NCBI RefSeq assembly: GCF_014083985.1
Contig: NZ_CP046907.1
Coordinates: 3,510,501-3,574,500 of the forward strand
DNA length: 64,000 nucleotides
Reading direction: 5' to 3'
Origin: Streptomyces sp. SCUT-3
Lineage (GTDB): Bacteria; Actinomycetota; Actinomycetes; Streptomycetales; Streptomycetaceae
The notes beneath the pieces were generated by a model. It was not told where the DNA came from. It saw only the letters and a list, made by a program, of their open reading frames with translations, and made no database searches. This document shows positions 15,304 to 23,022 of the stretch, piece after piece; position 1 is the first letter of the stretch, and each line of letters opens with the position of its first letter. A program made the translations under genes and the position numbers.

Positions 15304-17805
15304 GTGGAGCAGCTGACGCAGCACGACCCGAGACGGATCGGCCCTTTCGAGGTGCTGGGACGTCTCGGCGCCGGCGGCATGGGGCTGGTCTATCTCGCCA
15401 GGTCCGCCTCCGGGCGGCGCGTGGCGATCAAGACGGTGCGGGCCGAGCTCGCGGAGGACCAGCTCTTCCGGGTGCGCTTCACCCGCGAGGTGGAGGCGGC
15501 CCGCGCGGTCAGCGGCTTCTACACCGCGGCCGTCGTCGACGCCGACCCCCGCGCGGCCGTGCCCTGGCTCGCCACGGCCTACGTGCCCGCGCCCTCCCTC
15601 GAGGAGATCGTCAACGAGTCCGGCCCGCTGCCCGCGCAGGCGGTGCGCTGGCTGGCCGCCGGCGTCGCCGAGGCGCTGCAGTCCATCCACAACGCCGGCC
15701 TGGTCCACCGCGACCTCAAGCCGTCCAACGTCCTCGTGGTCGAGGACGGCCCCCGGGTCATCGACTTCGGCATCGCCAGCGGCGTGTCCAACACCCGGCT
15801 GACGATGACCAACGTCGCCGTCGGCACCCCCGCCTACATGTCGCCGGAACAGGCGCGCGACTCCCGCAGCGTCACCGGCGCCAGCGACATCTTCTCCCTC
15901 GCCTCCACCCTGGTCTTCGCCGCGACCGGCCACGCCCCCTACCGGGGCGCCAATCCGGTCGAGACCGTCTTCATGCTGCTGCGCGAGGAACCGGACCTGG
16001 CCGGGCTGCCCGGTGAACTGCGCCCGCTGATCGAGTCGTGCATGCAGAAGGAGGCCGACCGGCGGCCCAGCCCGGCCGACCTCCAGGCCACCCTCGCCCC
16101 GCACCTGTTCGCCTCGGGCGGCGACGACAGCGGCACGGCCTCCGCCTGGCTGCCCGCCTCCGCCGTCGCGCTGATCGAGGCCCGCAGCGGGCGGCGCGCC
16201 CCGGCGGGCGCCGGCCCGGCGGGCCCCCCGCCGCAGCCGCCGCCCCCCGTACCGCCCCGCCCGAACCGGCCCCCGCAGGCCCCGCCGGTGCCGCAGCACG
16301 AACCGCACCGGCCGCCGGTGCCGGTCGGCGCGCCGCCGCGGGCCCCGCAGGAGGCCGAGGGCCCGCGCCACGGCCGCCCCCCGCAGACCGCCGCGCACGG
16401 CCCGACGGGTGCGCACGGCCCGTCGATCGCGCACGGCCACGGCCCGACGGGTGCGCACGGTTCTGCCGGGGTTGTCCAGTTGACCGGGGCCCACGTGCCG
16501 ATCGGCCCCGGCCCCCGCGCCGCCGAGAACCCCGCCGACGCCCCCGCCCTCGACGGCGTGGGCTGGGTGCGCCGGGCCGACCTCCAGGCCGGGCCCGCCG
16601 CGGCGCCGCCCGCGCCGCACGCGGCCCCCCAGGTGCCGCCGCCCCCGCAGGCGCAGCCCGCGCAGGCGTCCCGTCCGGCCGAGCCGCCCGCCCGCTGGCG
16701 CCCGTGGCGCTTCCGCATGTCCAACGACGTGTGGGGCACACCGATCGTCGCCGGGGGACGGCTGTACGTCTCCTCGTTCGAGGTCCACGCCCTGGACGTG
16801 GCGACCGGGCGGCGGCAGTTCAAGACCCGCGAGGTCGCCTGGACGATGGCGGTCGAGGCCGGCCGCATCCACGCGTCCGACGGCCCCACCCTGTACGCCC
16901 TGGACGCCGCGGACGGGGGCGAGCACTGGCGCGCCGCCGCCGAGGGCTGGGTCTACTCGGTCCAGGTCGCCGACGGCACCGTGTGCACCGGCACCCGCGG
17001 CGGCGGGGTCCAGGCGTGGGACGCCGCCACCGGCGAGCTGCGCTGGAGCAGGGGCGGCGCCCAGACCGAGTTCGAGACCCAGGAGTCCGGGCCGTACGCC
17101 GTCGGCGGCACCGTCTACTACCGCGGGGGCGGACGGCTGTACGCCGTCGACGCCGTCTCCGGCCGGGACAAGTGGTCGTACCACGTGGGCGAGGAGGGCG
17201 CGTCCCGCCCCGTCCTGGCCGACGGCGCCCTCTACGTGACGGCGGGCGCGCGCGTCCTGGCGCTGGACGCGGCCGAGGGCCGGGAGCGCTGGCGCTTCGA
17301 CGCGCCCGCCGTGGTCTTCTGCCCGCCCGCCCACCGGCCGGGCCCCGGGGTCACCGGCGGCGGCGTCTACTTCGCCGACTACCTCGGCACCGTGTACGCC
17401 CTCGACCCGGACACCGGCCGGGACCGCTGGCGGGTGGCCACCGAGAGCCGCCAGAGCATCGAGCCGGTCCTGGTCCACGGCGGCTCCGTGCACCTGGGCT
17501 CCGGCCGGGCGCTCTACACGCTGGACGCGGTGACCGGCGCGCCCAAGTGGCGGTTCGCCGCCCAGGGCGAGGTGGTCGGCTCGCCCGTGGTCGCCGACGG
17601 GCGCATCCACTTCGGCTCCACGGACCACTGCCTGTACACGGTGGACGCGGCGGGCGGCCAGCTGCGCTGGAAGCTGGAGACCGGCGGGGAGATCACCGGC
17701 TCCCCGGTGGCCTCCCACGGCGTCGTCTACGCGTGCAGCAAGGACCGCTGCGTCTACGCGCTCGACGCCGCCAAGGGCACCGGTACCGGCCGCCCCGCGG
17801 CCTGA
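15304..17805 (+). CDS. afsK: serine/threonine protein kinase AfsK with C-terminal PQQ-type beta-propeller
   Basis: 833 residues from GTG 15304. Kinase domain ~12-275: glycine loop [16 protein letters not shown] lysine, catalytic [13 protein letters not shown] and the APE-like segment. Residues ~290-470 are a Pro/Ala/His-rich linker with repeated AHGPTG. The C-terminus (~475-825) is a PQQ-like propeller ([28 protein letters not shown], ...), and unlike many PknB kinases there is no obvious membrane helix. The propeller wording ([22 protein letters not shown]) is as I remember S. coelicolor AfsK. AfsK autophosphorylates and phosphorylates AfsR, whose gene lies 1.3 kb beyond. A long hairpin follows. 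Confidence 0.93.
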
Positions 17806-18110: not shown

Positions 18111-18626
18111 GTGAACAAGCACCGGGTCAAGGTCCTCGCGGTCACCGCGGTCGTCATGCTCGCCCTGACCGGCGGGCGCGGCGGAGGGGGCGGGAGCAGC
18201 AGCGGCGGCGGCAGCGGGGTGTCCAAGTCCGACGACTCGGACGGCGGAGGCGGCTGCAGCCGCCAGTCCGGCAGCTCCGGCAGCCACCACGACAGCGACG
18301 ACGACTACGACAGCGACGACTACAACTACGACGACAGTTCCTCGGAGCAGTACGCCGACGCGGAGGCGGAACTGGTCTCCTGCGTCACGAGCGACCAGCC
18401 GGCCGCCGGGCGCAGTGCCACGGTCGACGTCCACAATCCCGGCAGCGGCACGCAGACCTACACGGTGGAGGTCGACTTCCTCGCGCCCTCCGACGGCAGG
18501 GAGCTGGACACCAACGAGGTCACGGTCGTGGTCGCCGGCGGCGGGACCGAGACGGTCCGGGTCCCCATGGACGACCCTGACGCCTATGTGCCGGGCACGA
18601 CCTGCGAACTGGACTCGGTGTACTGA
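18111..18626 (+). CDS. small secreted protein with Gly/Ser/Asp-rich low-complexity segment
   Basis: 171 residues from GTG 18111 (GGGCAGGGAC upstream). Signal-peptide-like N-terminus (KVLAVTAVVMLALTGG), then a Gly/Ser run, a very acidic stretch (DSDDDYDSDDYNYDDSSSE), and a ~85-residue beta-rich domain (SATVDVHNPGSGTQTYTVEV ... TCELDSVY) with two cysteines that could form a disulfide. Where a lipoprotein would have LTGC, this one reads LTGG, so lipid anchoring seems lost. It sits between afsK and the afsS/afsR genes. Function unknown. Confidence 0.75.
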   Translation: MNKHRVKVLAVTAVVMLALTGGRGGGGGSSSGGGSGVSKSDDSDGGGGCSRQSGSSGSHHDSDDDYDSDDYNYDDSSSEQYADAEAELVSCVTSDQPAAGRSATVDVHNPGSGTQTYTVEVDFLAPSDGRELDTNEVTVVVAGGGTETVRVPMDDPDAYVPGTTCELDSVY

Positions 18627-18838: not shown

Positions 18839-19003
18839 TTACGGCGTCTCGCCGGTGGCGTGCCAGTCGGCCGGCTTGATGTCGCTGCCGGTGGCGTGCC
18901 AGTCCATCGGCTTGATGCCGTCCTCGCCGGTGGTCTCCTGCGCGGGGAGCTCGAGGTCGCCGGTCTCGGGGTCCGGGGTCGTGGTCGTGCTCTTGGTGCT
19001 CAT
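18839..19003 (-). CDS. afsS: AfsS-like small regulatory peptide (54 aa)
   Basis: ATG 19003 is preceded by GGGAGGGA at ideal spacing, and TAA is at 18839-18841. The 54-residue product is hydrophilic and acidic, with no signal or cysteine, and has two direct repeats, IKPMDWHATG and IKPADWHATG. It lies just downstream of afsR on the same strand, the position of afsS (afsR2) in S. coelicolor. That gene also encodes a ~60-residue peptide with short D-N-H repeats, and AfsR activates it to switch on antibiotic production. The assignment rests on synteny plus repeat character; the repeat residues differ (DWHATG rather than DNH). Confidence 0.8.
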   Translation of the reverse strand: MSTKSTTTTPDPETGDLELPAQETTGEDGIKPMDWHATGSDIKPADWHATGETP

Positions 19004-19040
19004 GCGTTCCCTCCCGTGGTTCGCCGGGTGCGGCGGTGCA

Positions 19041-19083
19041 ACCCTGGCGAGACTGGTGTGTGATCGTCAACGGATTATGAACG
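19041..19083 (-). promoter_or_regulatory. putative afsS promoter with AfsR-type direct repeats
   Basis: On the minus strand, CGTTCA (19078-19083) and CGTTGA (19067-19072) are 11-bp-spaced direct repeats. The second overlaps a -35-like TTGACG, which is followed after 18 bp by CAGGGT (19041-19046). SARP regulators bind 11-bp-spaced heptamer-like repeats overlapping the -35. The repeats overlap the end of afsR. Confidence 0.65.
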
Positions 19084-22050
19084 TCCGCTGGACGCGCAGG
19101 TCGGACCGGGAGGCGGGGGGTTTCGGACCGCGGTTGTCGACTCCAGCAGCCGGCGCACTTCGCCGACCTCCGGCGCCGAGGTGCGTTCGAGGAGTTCCAG
19201 GGCGTCCGTCCAGCAGGCGCGGGCGCGGTCGTGCTGGCCTACGGCGCGCAGGGCGCGGCCGAGGATGACCTGCACGGTTCCCCGGCGCCAGTCGCCCCCG
19301 ATGTCGCGCAGCAGTTTGAGTGCCTGTTCGGCGTGCGCGGCCGCCTGCCGGGGACGGCCGGCCGCCAGTTGGGAGTGGGCGAGCCGGTAGAAGGTCATGC
19401 CCTCCCACAACCGCTGCCGGTTGGCCCGGAAGATGGCGAGCGCCTCGGACTGGCGGTCGACGGCCTCCTCCAGTCGCCCCGCCTCGGCCAGGGCGATGCC
19501 CAGGGCGTACAGGCCGTTGCCGAGCCGCAGGGTCACCCCCTGCCGCTGGTAGATGGCCACGCCGGCCTCGGCGGCGGCGACCGCCCTGTCCTTCTGCCCG
19601 AGGGAGAGGAGGGCCCGGGACAGGTTGCTCAGGGCGGCCGCCTCGCCGGGCTCGTTGCCGTCGTCGCGGAAGGCGGACAGTGCCCGGTCGAAGTAGTCGG
19701 CGGCCTCCTGGTAGCGGCTGCGGTACAGGGCGATGATCCCGCGCAGGTTCGGGGCGTAGGAGCAGGTCACCGGGTCCGTGACGGCCGTCCCGAGGGTCAT
19801 GGCGTACCGTGCTTCGGCGTCGGCGCCGTCGAACTGGCCGCTCATGCCGAGCGCCTGACCGAGCAGCGACCGGGCCCTGCCCTCCACGAGGCGGTCCCCG
19901 GCCGCGTGGGCGGCCTCGACCACGGCGCGCGTGACGTCCTCGTACGCGCGGGCGTGGATTCCCGACTCCATCAGGTCCTGGGCCATCAGGAGCAGGTCGG
20001 CCGCCGGCCGCAGCATCGCCCGGTTCTCCGGGGCGGCGGCCTGGCGGGCGGCGGCGAGGAGCCCGGGGGCCTCGGCGAACAGCCAGTCGAGCGCCGAGTC
20101 CCGGCAGTCCAGGGGCAGCCCGGGCCGCGACACGGCGGTCAGGTGGTGCGGTGCCCGGTCGCCGGGGCGTTCCAGTTCGTAGGCGCGGGCGGCGGTGGCG
20201 AGGCAGAAGTCGAGGAGGCGGGCGAGGGCGGCGGGGGCGGTGCCGGGCGGGTCGTCGCTCTCGGCGCGGCTGCGCGCGTAGAGCCGCACGAGGTCGTGGT
20301 AGCGGTAGCGGCCGGGGGCGGCGGACTCCAGGAGGCTGGCGTCGACCAGGGACTCCAGCAGGTCCTCGGCGTCGTCCGGGTCCATGTCGAGGACGGCGGC
20401 CGCGGCCGGCAGGGAGATGTCGGGGCCGTCGGGCAGGGACAGCAGCCGGAAGGCGCGGGCCTGGTGCGGTTCCAGCTGCCCGTAGCCGAGCTCGAAGGTG
20501 GCGGCGACCGCCAGGTCGCCCACGCGCAGTTCGTCCAGCCGCCGTTTGCCGTCGGCGAGTTTGCGGGCGAGGAAGGAGACCGTCCAGGTGCGGCGGGTGG
20601 CCAGCCGGGAGGCGGCGATCCGGATGGCCAGCGGCAGGAAGCCGCAGGCGCCGACGACGTCGAGGGCCGCCTCGCGCTCGCTGGCCACCCGTTCCTCGCC
20701 GACGATCCGGGTGAACAGGTCCAGGGCCTCCTCGGGGCTCATCACGTCGAGGTCGACCAGGTGGGCGCTGGCCAGGTCCACCATCCGCACCCGGCTGGTG
20801 ACCAGCACCGCGCACCCGGCGGCGCCGGGCAGCAGCGGCCGGATCTGGGCCGCGTCGCGGGCGTTGTCGAGGACGGTGAGGACCCGGCGGCCGGCGAGTG
20901 CGGAGCGGAACAGCGCCGCGCGGTCCTCCAGGCTGTCGGGGACGGCGGAGTCGGGGGTGCCCAGGGCCCGCAGGAAGGAGGCGAGGACGACCTCCGGCTC
21001 GGCCGGCCGCGGGCTGGAGCCCTGCAGGTCGACGTAGAGCTGGCCGTCGGGGAAGTGCTCGCTCGCCTCGTGCGCGACGTGCACCGCCAGCGTCGTCTTG
21101 CCCACGCCGCCTATGCCGGCCAGCGCGGAGACGGCCATCACCCGGCCGCCGGCCGTGGACAGCTGCTGCCCCAGCTCGGCGACGAACGCCGCCCGGCCGG
21201 TGAAGTCGGCCACGGTGGCGGGCAGCTGGGCGGGGCGCACCCAGGCCGGTCCGCCGCCCTCCGGGGCCTCGGCCGCCGGTGCCTCCTGCGCGGCCAGGGC
21301 CGGGTCGGCGCGCAGGATGCGCTGGTGCAGTTCGGTCAGCTCCGGGCCGGGGTCCACGCCGAGCTCGTCGGCGAGCAGCCGGCGGGTGTCGGCGTACAGG
21401 CCCAGGGCCTCGGCCTGCCGGCCGCCCCGGTACAGGGCCAGCATCAGCAGGGAGCGCAGCCTCTCGCGCAGCGGGTACTCGGCGGACAGGGCGGTCAGTT
21501 CGGAGACCGCCTCGGTGTGGCCGCCCAGTTCCAGGTCCAGCTCCAGGCGGCTCTCCAGCAGTGCCAGGCGCCACTCCGTCAGCCTGCTGCGCTGCCCCTC
21601 CATGTAGGGGCCGGGCGTGCCGGCCAGTGCCTCGCCGTCCCACAGGCCCAGTGCTTCCGTCAGCAGTTCGCGGGCGCGGCGGGGGTCCCCGGCGGCCCGG
21701 CGCTTCTCCGCCTCCGACGCCAGCACCTCCGCCCGGGCGAGGTCGAGGGCCCCGGGGGCGACGCGCAGCGCGTAGCCGCCCGCCTCGGTGACCAGGGCGG
21801 AGGCGCCCAGCACCTTCCTGAGTCTGGAGGCGTAGGTGCGCAGGGTGGCTGTCGCCTGCGACGGCGGTTCCTCGCCCCACATCGCGTCGATCAGCTCCGG
21901 GGCGGTGGCCGTCCGCCCTCGGCGCAGCAGCAGCACGGCCAGCATGGCGCGCTGCTGCGGCGAACCCGCGTTGAGCGGGTTCTCGCCGTCCCAGACCCGT
22001 ACCGGGCCGAGCAGGGCGAAGCGCAGATCCGACGCCGATCCGTCGTTCAT
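19075..22050 (-). CDS. afsR: SARP-family global regulator AfsR (SARP + NB-ARC + TPR)
   Basis: 991 residues, the usual AfsR length. Residues ~9-100 are the OmpR-like winged helix (LRFALLGPVRVW, SPQQRAMLAVLLLRRG, ATLRTYASRLRKVLG). ~105-255 are the bacterial transcriptional activation domain. ~285-600 are an NB-ARC ATPase with P-loop GIGGVGKTT (~residue 315) and an 'RVLTVLDNA' Walker B-like strand. The C-terminal ~380 residues are TPR repeats. In S. coelicolor AfsR is phosphorylated by AfsK and activates afsS; the neighbouring genes here support the same circuit. Start at ATG 22050. A truncated AMP-binding gene diverges upstream. Confidence 0.93.
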   Translation of the reverse strand: MNDGSASDLRFALLGPVRVWDGENPLNAGSPQQRAMLAVLLLRRGRTATAPELIDAMWGEEPPSQATATLRTYASRLRKVLGASALVTEAGGYALRVAPGALDLARAEVLASEAEKRRAAGDPRRARELLTEALGLWDGEALAGTPGPYMEGQRSRLTEWRLALLESRLELDLELGGHTEAVSELTALSAEYPLRERLRSLLMLALYRGGRQAEALGLYADTRRLLADELGVDPGPELTELHQRILRADPALAAQEAPAAEAPEGGGPAWVRPAQLPATVADFTGRAAFVAELGQQLSTAGGRVMAVSALAGIGGVGKTTLAVHVAHEASEHFPDGQLYVDLQGSSPRPAEPEVVLASFLRALGTPDSAVPDSLEDRAALFRSALAGRRVLTVLDNARDAAQIRPLLPGAAGCAVLVTSRVRMVDLASAHLVDLDVMSPEEALDLFTRIVGEERVASEREAALDVVGACGFLPLAIRIAASRLATRRTWTVSFLARKLADGKRRLDELRVGDLAVAATFELGYGQLEPHQARAFRLLSLPDGPDISLPAAAAVLDMDPDDAEDLLESLVDASLLESAAPGRYRYHDLVRLYARSRAESDDPPGTAPAALARLLDFCLATAARAYELERPGDRAPHHLTAVSRPGLPLDCRDSALDWLFAEAPGLLAAARQAAAPENRAMLRPAADLLLMAQDLMESGIHARAYEDVTRAVVEAAHAAGDRLVEGRARSLLGQALGMSGQFDGADAEARYAMTLGTAVTDPVTCSYAPNLRGIIALYRSRYQEAADYFDRALSAFRDDGNEPGEAAALSNLSRALLSLGQKDRAVAAAEAGVAIYQRQGVTLRLGNGLYALGIALAEAGRLEEAVDRQSEALAIFRANRQRLWEGMTFYRLAHSQLAAGRPRQAAAHAEQALKLLRDIGGDWRRGTVQVILGRALRAVGQHDRARACWTDALELLERTSAPEVGEVRRLLESTTAVRNPPPPGPTCASSGRS

Positions 22051-22230
22051 CGCAGCCCCCGAGAGTCGCTGGTGCCCTGGACGCCGGGAAATGGTTCGTC
22101 CATCAATCGTTCATCGTGTACCGGAACAGTGACGCCTCAGCGCGCGCAGTCAGTTGCGAGCCTGCGCGAGCAGCCTCCCTCTGCTCCTCGCCGACCGTCC
22201 AACTCTCACGGAAGACTTCACCGAAAAGCA

Positions 22231-23022
22231 ATGCGTTCCATGCCTCTCATGCCTCGTCGGGCCCGGGCGGCGACCACCGGACGCACGCTCGGCGCACTTC
22301 TGCGCCGACGCGCGGCGGAGTCGCCGGACGCGCCCCTTTCCGCCGCCGGCCCGGTTGCCGGCCCCACGGGTGGTGCCGCCACCGGTCCCACCATGATCAC
22401 CTACGGCGCGCTGGACCTGCGCGCGCGTGCCGTTGCCGCGTTCCTGGGCGCCGTGGTCCCGCCGGGCAGCCGGGTGCTGCTGGCGCACGTGCCCGGGTCC
22501 GGGGCCGACTTCGCCGGCGCGCTGTTCGGCTGCTGGTACGCGGGGATGACCGCGGTGCCGCTGCCCGCCGGGGCGCTGGCCGGCGGGGCGCAGCTGCGCG
22601 ACGCGGTCCGGCGGGCGGCCCCCGAGGCCGTCCTGGCCGCGCCGGCGCTCGCCGCCGTCGTGCGGCACCGGTTCCGCGGGGGCGAGGTGTTCGCCGCCTC
22701 CGACGGCAGTGCCGTCGACGGCGAGCCGGTCGGGAGCCTCGCGCGGCGCTGGCTGCCGCTCGGGGTGCTGCCGTCCGCCGACGCCCTCGTGTGCCACACG
22801 CCGGAGGGGGACTGCGAGGCGCCCTTCACCCACGCCGACGTCCTGCGGTCGCTGTCCGTGCTGGCGCACACGGCGCGGCAGGGCATGGACCGGGAGCAGA
22901 CGGACTGGCTGGCGCACGTGCACGGTCTGGGCCTGGTCTGGGAGGCCCTGCTGGCCGTCCACCAGGGGCACGGGCACGGCGGGCCGGTCCGCCCCGCCGC
23001 GCCGTGGTGGCCGCCGCGCTGA
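22231..23022 (+). CDS. truncated AMP-binding (fatty acyl-AMP ligase-like) protein
   Basis: About 263 residues from ATG 22231 (ATG 22240 and 22249 are alternatives; the ribosome site is weak). It resembles the N-terminal half of a FadD/FAAL enzyme: 'ITYGALDLRARAVAAFLG', 'RVLLAHVPGSGADFAGALFGCWYAGMTAVPLP', and 'WLAHVHGLGLVWEALLAVHQG', which matches the family's WLP-x-HD-x-GL step. The ATP-binding TSGSTG-type loop is replaced by CHTPEGD, and the whole C-terminal half is missing. It therefore cannot adenylate and is either a decayed gene or a repurposed domain. The frame is clean, with strong codon bias. Divergent from afsR. Confidence 0.6.
   Translation: MRSMPLMPRRARAATTGRTLGALLRRRAAESPDAPLSAAGPVAGPTGGAATGPTMITYGALDLRARAVAAFLGAVVPPGSRVLLAHVPGSGADFAGALFGCWYAGMTAVPLPAGALAGGAQLRDAVRRAAPEAVLAAPALAAVVRHRFRGGEVFAASDGSAVDGEPVGSLARRWLPLGVLPSADALVCHTPEGDCEAPFTHADVLRSLSVLAHTARQGMDREQTDWLAHVHGLGLVWEALLAVHQGHGHGGPVRPAAPWWPPR

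Follow-up and report, generated by a model that had tools for sequence, protein, structure and literature searches.

Co-variation of the AfsS repeat core with the TPR sensor of AfsR suggests a peptide ligand for a streptomycete antibiotic regulator

Introduction

Directly downstream of afsR in Streptomyces sp. SCUT-3 lies a very small gene whose product carries two copies of a ten-residue repeat, which raises the question of what this protein is and what its repeat might do. In 2026, the mode of action of AfsS was described as 'still unknown' (PMC13011467), and whether the TPR sensor of AfsR binds any inducer 'remains elusive' (PMC10936776). If the AfsS repeat were the inducer of AfsR, it would give one answer to both questions. 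Here, we describe the gene within its window (the whole stretch of 64,000 nucleotides that was analysed) and compare its repeat, its promoter and the adjacent AfsR sensor with those of related loci.

Results

The small gene is afsS in a canonical afs locus

The ORF listing and translation gave a 54-residue protein (MSTKSTTTTPDPETGDLELPAQETTGEDGIKPMDWHATGSDIKPADWHATGETP) with an ATG start, separated from the afsR stop codon by 71 bp (Table 1). The original prediction had regarded it as an AfsS-type peptide with a strong ribosome site, a two-fold ten-residue repeat and a place right after afsR. All of these observations held: GGGAGGG precedes the ATG, two IKPxDWHATG copies occupy residues 30-39 and 42-51, and the gene belongs to a canonical afsK/afsS/afsR locus, both neighbours being called by scores above the curated equivalog cut-offs of NCBI. 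The AfsS-type identity is supported by the adjacent true afsR, the nearby afsK, the repeat and an AfsR box. The gene is a normal AfsS and a member of a known family; the 54-residue protein has no family match in Pfam or NCBIfam. Searched across the 6.07 Mb genome, the repeat DNA (GACTGGCACGCCACCGG) has two matches, both inside afsS, and the two repeats share identical DNA over 17 bp.

Between afsS and afsK lies a 171-residue ORF (18111-18626, forward strand) with a low-complexity Gly/Ser/Asp stretch, which matched no Pfam or NCBIfam family. Weak homologues of its C-terminal part occur in 10 other afsR loci (33-36% in those shown).

Table 1. Features of the afs locus, with positions counted in the window
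Feature	Position	Strand	Remark
afsK, Ser/Thr kinase with PQQ propeller	15304-17805	+	NF053615, 1414.8 bits (cut-off 1300)
afsS, 54 residues	18839-19003	-	ORF and ribosome site; orthologues directly 3' of afsR in 167 loci
Repeat copy 2, IKPADWHATG, residues 42-51	18851-18880	-	
Repeat copy 1, IKPMDWHATG, residues 30-39	18887-18916	-	
Ribosome binding site GGGAGGG	19009-19015	-	5' of the afsS ATG
Probable -10 element CAGTCT	19055-19050	-	6 bp after the box, spacing as in other species and S. coelicolor
afs box CGTTCATAATC-CGTTGACGATC	19062-19083	-	Repeats exactly 11 bp apart
Third, weaker box repeat CGTCCAGCGGA	19084-19094	-	Beside the afs box
afsR, SARP-NOD-arm-TPR regulator	19075-22050	-	NF053617, 1535.2 bits (cut-off 1430)
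AfsR arm/TPR sensor, residues 604-974, proposed receptor of the AfsS repeat	19129-20241	-	pLDDT mostly 81-97; co-change with the core
AfsR R922	19285-19287	-	R with T/S at core position 5, other residues with P (165/167)
AfsR M885	19396-19398	-	Co-varies with core position 5
AfsR L769	19744-19746	-	Co-varies with core position 2 (X)
AfsR Q691	19978-19980	-	Co-varies with core position 2 (X)

AfsS cores vary between species and agree within a protein

Loci with afsR came from two sources, a scan of named genomes and 395 genomes of the family, and the gene after afsR was read. A core of the form [D/N/E]-X-[H/Y/W]-x-x was found in 167 afsR-linked AfsS proteins, with 66 core versions among them, and X takes at least 15 residues (16 by automatic call, 15 after hand correction). 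Within a protein the copies are nearly uniform: 544 of 551 carry the X and the aromatic residue of their own protein, and two copies agree in these residues in 97.5% of comparisons within a protein versus 10.3% between proteins. There are one to six copies per protein, mostly three or four, and two in the window. Furthermore, the core is unchanged where AfsR sequences are more than about 93% identical and is usually different below about 84%. Since cores vary between species and agree within a protein, DWHAT is, as judged by this comparison, one species' version of the AfsS core.

The original prediction had also proposed that DWHATG might mark a separate subclass of small activator, and tryptophan at X is indeed rare, being found in 1 of 167 proteins by automatic call and in 3 after inspection of loci L008 and L034 (the cores of these two, L015 and L045 were assigned by hand). 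Nevertheless, L008 (Wenjunlia vitaminophila, NWQPT) and L034 (NWHTD) are among the nearest relatives found and likewise have X=W if their cores are aligned to the frame of the other repeats, W is one of the at least 15 values that X takes over 167 same-locus orthologues, and the locus, promoter layout, IKPxD lead-in and core frame are all as in other AfsS. The subclass is unsupported by this comparison, and we regard it as extremely improbable. The diversity of the core also bears on the proposal that AfsS is a sigma-like factor binding RNA polymerase, a label given for some residues of sigma domain 3 (PMC2267785). A conserved contact with RNA polymerase is unlikely with 66 cores in 167 proteins, and the absence of a Pfam or NCBIfam match to AfsS does not favour it either; we consider a sigma-like role very unlikely.

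The afsS promoter carries an AfsR box

A box model was built from the afsS promoters of other species, with the window's own box excluded. These promoters have CGTTCATCGTT-CGTTTATCGCC, 6 bp, and then CAnnCT, and the afsS box scored above every shuffled sequence in 165 of 166 loci. A 22-bp AfsR box with a -10 element at the same distance is present in S. coelicolor (PMC10936776), and the published AfsR site is CGTT(T/C)ATCGNN (PMC10972967). The window has the same arrangement, namely an AfsR box of two 11-bp repeats followed by a -10 element six bp downstream. The predicted promoter repeats, 11 bp apart, could be assigned to CGTTCATAATC and CGTTGACGATC at 19083-19062. The box is a weak match to the model (-0.7 versus a median of 40.4 for other afsS boxes), and, of the roughly 128,000 positions that the two strands of the window offer, two of its registers rank second and fifth. 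On the other hand, the CAGGGT previously taken as the -10 element is probably not one; CAGTCT is preferred because its 6-bp spacing matches that in other species and in S. coelicolor. The transcription start would accordingly be placed near 19043.

The distance from the afs box to the afsS start is about 190 nt in most species and 80 nt in the window, a leader shorter by about 110 nt; the long leaders of other species carry common stretches such as GTCGCGTCGGGGGGCAG. The window's best AfsR-box match (CGTCCATCAATCGTTCATCGTG, score 24.9; 22097-22118, forward strand) sits between afsR and a divergent gene for a 263-residue protein with an AMP-binding domain (22231-23022, forward strand). L008 has a comparable divergent box (score 17.8), and L008 and L034 both have a homologue of this gene on the same side of afsR. 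The gene is a candidate for an additional AfsR target in the X=W lineages.

The core co-varies with the groove of the AfsR sensor

In the AF2 model, the AfsR sensor (residues 604-974) forms a TPR superhelix with block pLDDT mostly between 81 and 97, and the NOD is poorly modelled. X underwent about 47 changes on the AfsR tree according to parsimony. On the same tree, 24 columns of the sensor (617-960) reached z>2 for X and for the whole core, where 9.0 and 4.9 columns, respectively, were expected (p=0.0003 in both cases). Such whole-tree co-change alone is no proof of contact, since afsS adjoins the part of afsR that encodes the sensor. At third codon bases, co-change with the AfsS core was likewise seen in the TPR region and was absent from the SARP and NOD regions. 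Part of the sensor signal is, on this evidence, linkage by co-replacement of the afsR 3' end and afsS, because the TPR third codon bases co-change too; afsS and the sensor-encoding part of afsR have apparently been exchanged together. Enrichment of the sensor over the rest of AfsR had been considered as direct evidence of contact and was downgraded, given that third codon bases show the same enrichment.

The co-variation would be nothing but linkage if recombination replaced the afsR 3' end and afsS together and AfsS acted on another target. Besides the third-base signal, the report that afsS alone can drive actinorhodin production (PMC8290100) would fit such an explanation. As a linkage control, we used a tree inferred from the nucleotides of those sensor codons that do not belong to the groove. 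With this tree, amino-acid co-change was concentrated at the TPR groove, both for the textbook set of positions 2, 5, 9, 12 and 13 (p=4.8e-4) and for this set with -1 and 6 added (p=3.0e-6), and it was higher in the groove-lining A-helices of the AF2 model than in the rest of the sensor (p=1.7e-7). Of these tests, the fairer ones are those with the textbook set and the AF2 helices, as the TPR register was fixed after the top columns had been seen. No significant excess was found for third bases of groove codons (z>3 in 0 of 44 versus 5 of 222, p=0.09).

Moreover, the mapped part of the sensor shifts with the position in the core: position 2 maps to AfsR residues 691, 732, 735, 762, 769 and 772, position 4 to 735, 775, 776, 813, 849 and 881, and position 5 to 815, 849, 850, 881, 885 and 890. 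Their centroids are 743, 792 and 875, respectively, and an equally ordered span appeared in 88 of 2000 permutations. Where X is asparagine, nearly all clades have K691 and most have D or N at 769. Histidine at X occurs mostly with Q691 and D769, glycine with R691 and E769, and lysine with L691 and D769. In general, a nonpolar X is mostly accompanied by a hydrophobic residue at 769 and a polar X by an acidic one. The three X=W lineages have Q691, M694, M736, Y765 and L769 in common. The rule for R922 and core position 5 has L015 and L034 as its two exceptions among the 167 proteins. Counted over phylogenetically independent pairs, it held in 7.0 of 9 on the whole tree (p=0.016) and in 8.5 of 10 on the SARP and NOD tree (p=0.008), with none opposite.

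The residue rules lose significance on the sensor's own tree, as linkage alone would have it: the R922 rule held there in only 2.6 of 4 pairs (p=0.25), and each rule had only two to three informative independent pairs, nearly all in the same direction (p 0.25-0.5). However, linkage alone does not predict that groove-facing A-helices co-change in amino acids and not in third bases, nor that distinct core positions map to distinct sensor stretches. In these data the groove-focused co-variation goes beyond linkage, and we consider linkage as the sole explanation unlikely, although it deserves some weight.

Many loci encode an exported partner with a related core

A second gene on the same strand was found in 43 loci. 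It begins about 290-590 bp beyond the start of afsS and encodes 41-110 residues with a signal-peptide-like N-terminus and a core near that of the locus's own AfsS. The two cores agree at a mean of 2.91 of 4 positions, versus 1.43 for shuffled partners. When one locus was kept per cluster of AfsR sequences more than 85% identical (32 loci), the agreement was 3.00 versus 1.53, and none of 20,000 shuffles rose above 2.09. The protein ends exactly with the core in 26 of the 43 exported partners versus 4 of the 167 AfsS. SCO4424, beside afsS of S. coelicolor, is listed as a 'possible secreted protein' (PMC3897704), and we infer that it is the exported partner in that species.

In 38 of the 43 loci, a single one of the four residues distinguishes the partner core from that of AfsS, and in only two loci are the cores identical. 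The single changes are often conservative (K/R, V/I and Y/W), and it looks as if identity between the two cores is avoided. Among the loci listed, no AfsR box of afsS strength was found 5' of the exported gene. In the window, the exported partner is absent beside afsS; the genome has no other DWH[A/V]TG, and inspection of its other 18 [DN]WH-x-[T/S/P] matches revealed no small signal-peptide protein.

The exported partners also speak to the origin of repeat uniformity. Tandem duplication or gene conversion might keep the copies alike, with D-x-H possibly a metal site and the exact residues having no partner. The constancy of D/N/E and of the aromatic residue (mostly H), together with the 17 bp of identical repeat DNA in the window, is in keeping with such an origin. 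Against it, the exported partner is a separate protein that has almost the same core within spacers unlike those of AfsS, and the core co-varies with groove residues of AfsR. We find this account highly improbable.

Discussion

On the strength of sequence co-variation, the AfsS repeat core is probably a peptide ligand in the TPR groove of AfsR, rather than part of a sigma-like factor. In the mechanism that we propose, AfsR activates afsS through an AfsR-dependent promoter, and the five-residue core of each repeat (here D-W-H-A-T) would be a ligand of AfsR's own arm/TPR sensor. Both the length of the cores and their pattern of variation suit ligands of the AfsR groove. The core might lie extended in this groove, where X would be close to the first repeats (691/732/769) and the final residue of the core close to the last ones (881/885/922). 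AfsR would then activate expression of a multivalent ligand of its own, forming a feedback loop in which several core copies could bridge several AfsR protomers, and the ligand might release the SARP domain held back by NOD and TPR. The exported gene, present in other loci and absent from the window's genome, would probably supply a related pentapeptide from outside. Physical binding, feedback, multivalency and sign are all what we infer from these patterns.

The NOD and TPR of AfsR restrain its SARP domain in vitro (PMC10936776). Activation is our guess for the effect of AfsS on AfsR, because of the inhibition of SARP by NOD and TPR and the higher antibiotic output seen with additional AfsS. 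Disruption of afsS in S. coelicolor impairs pho and nitrogen genes (PMC2267785), a drop that occurs although afsR is present, and AfsR binds the pstS, phoRP and glnR promoters (PMC10972967). Constitutive afsS alone leads to actinorhodin overproduction, and AfsS has been described as the final activator (PMC8290100); since afsS alone can have this effect, AfsS may also act elsewhere.

In the literature surveyed, which did not cover the original AfsS papers of 1994-2002, we found no report of AfsS binding AfsR or of a link between AfsR and the RRNPP receptors. The co-variation with the AfsR sensor is a new result that gives a specific, testable answer on the AfsS mode of action: it names AfsR residues to mutate (691, 732, 769, 842, 885 and 922) and would allow a designed specificity swap between species. 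A wider and more tentative possibility is that AfsR is a peptide-sensing STAND regulator whose species-specific pentapeptide comes from multi-copy AfsS and, in many species, also from an exported Phr-like precursor with a near-identical terminal core. The sensor and ligand genes might then form a co-replaced specificity cassette, providing private signals that control antibiotics. If true, RRNPP-like peptide recognition would enter streptomycete antibiotic control, and synthetic peptides would be possible elicitors of silent antibiotics.

Comparison with known systems

AfsS (AfsR2) of S. coelicolor and S. lividans is likewise a small protein encoded beside afsR, with tandem D-x-H repeats and an AfsR-box promoter. 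The window's AfsS has two repeat copies instead of three, and its core is DWHAT in contrast to the DNHM-type core of S. coelicolor AfsS, as read from a primer (PMC2267785).

The closest solved folds of the sensor include APPBP2 with the RxxGP degron (top match, Z 30) and, for residues 595-958, phage Phi3T Rap with the pheromone RGHTS (Z 26.3, rmsd 4.4, 315 aligned). They are followed by Rap with the competence and sporulation factor (25.4), RapF with an inhibitory peptide (24.8), MalT domain III (24.4), LGN with peptides (about 23), NprR-NprX (22.2), AimR-arbitrium (19.6) and PlcR-PapR (18.5). Rap-Phr, NprR-NprX, AimR-arbitrium, PlcR-PapR and LGN are among the matching TPR folds whose structures contain extended peptides. 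Because TPR folds match one another broadly, these matches support a peptide groove and not descent from RRNPP receptors. MalT and other STAND regulators likewise combine a NOD with a helical-repeat sensor, but MalT senses maltotriose, whereas the proposed inducer of AfsR is a peptide encoded by AfsR's own target gene. LGN/Pins has TPRs of about 40 residues that bind extended peptides, including GoLoco motifs of the same protein (4jhr); unlike AfsR, it is a eukaryotic cell-polarity protein without a DNA-binding domain.

The RRNPP systems (Rap-Phr, NprR-NprX, PlcR-PapR and AimR-arbitrium) pair a TPR superhelix with a peptide of about five residues, as proposed here for AfsR. Phr pentapeptides such as ERGMT and ARNQT resemble DxHAT in length and in the final T. 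Also RRNPP-like are the adjacent signal-peptide pro-protein that ends with the core in many AfsR species and the joint variation of receptor and peptide; the exported pro-peptide is present in 43 other loci and absent from the window. The TPR domain of AfsR has the peptide-receptor fold, which other TPR families match too. Instead of the HTH (or the three-helix bundle of Rap) and TPR of RRNPP receptors, AfsR has OmpR-type DNA-binding, BTAD, NB-ARC and TPR domains. Unlike RRNPP systems, AfsR is a SARP-NOD-TPR STAND ATPase, and AfsS is cytosolic and multi-copy. By analogy, AfsR may work like an RRNPP receptor, but we do not file it among them.
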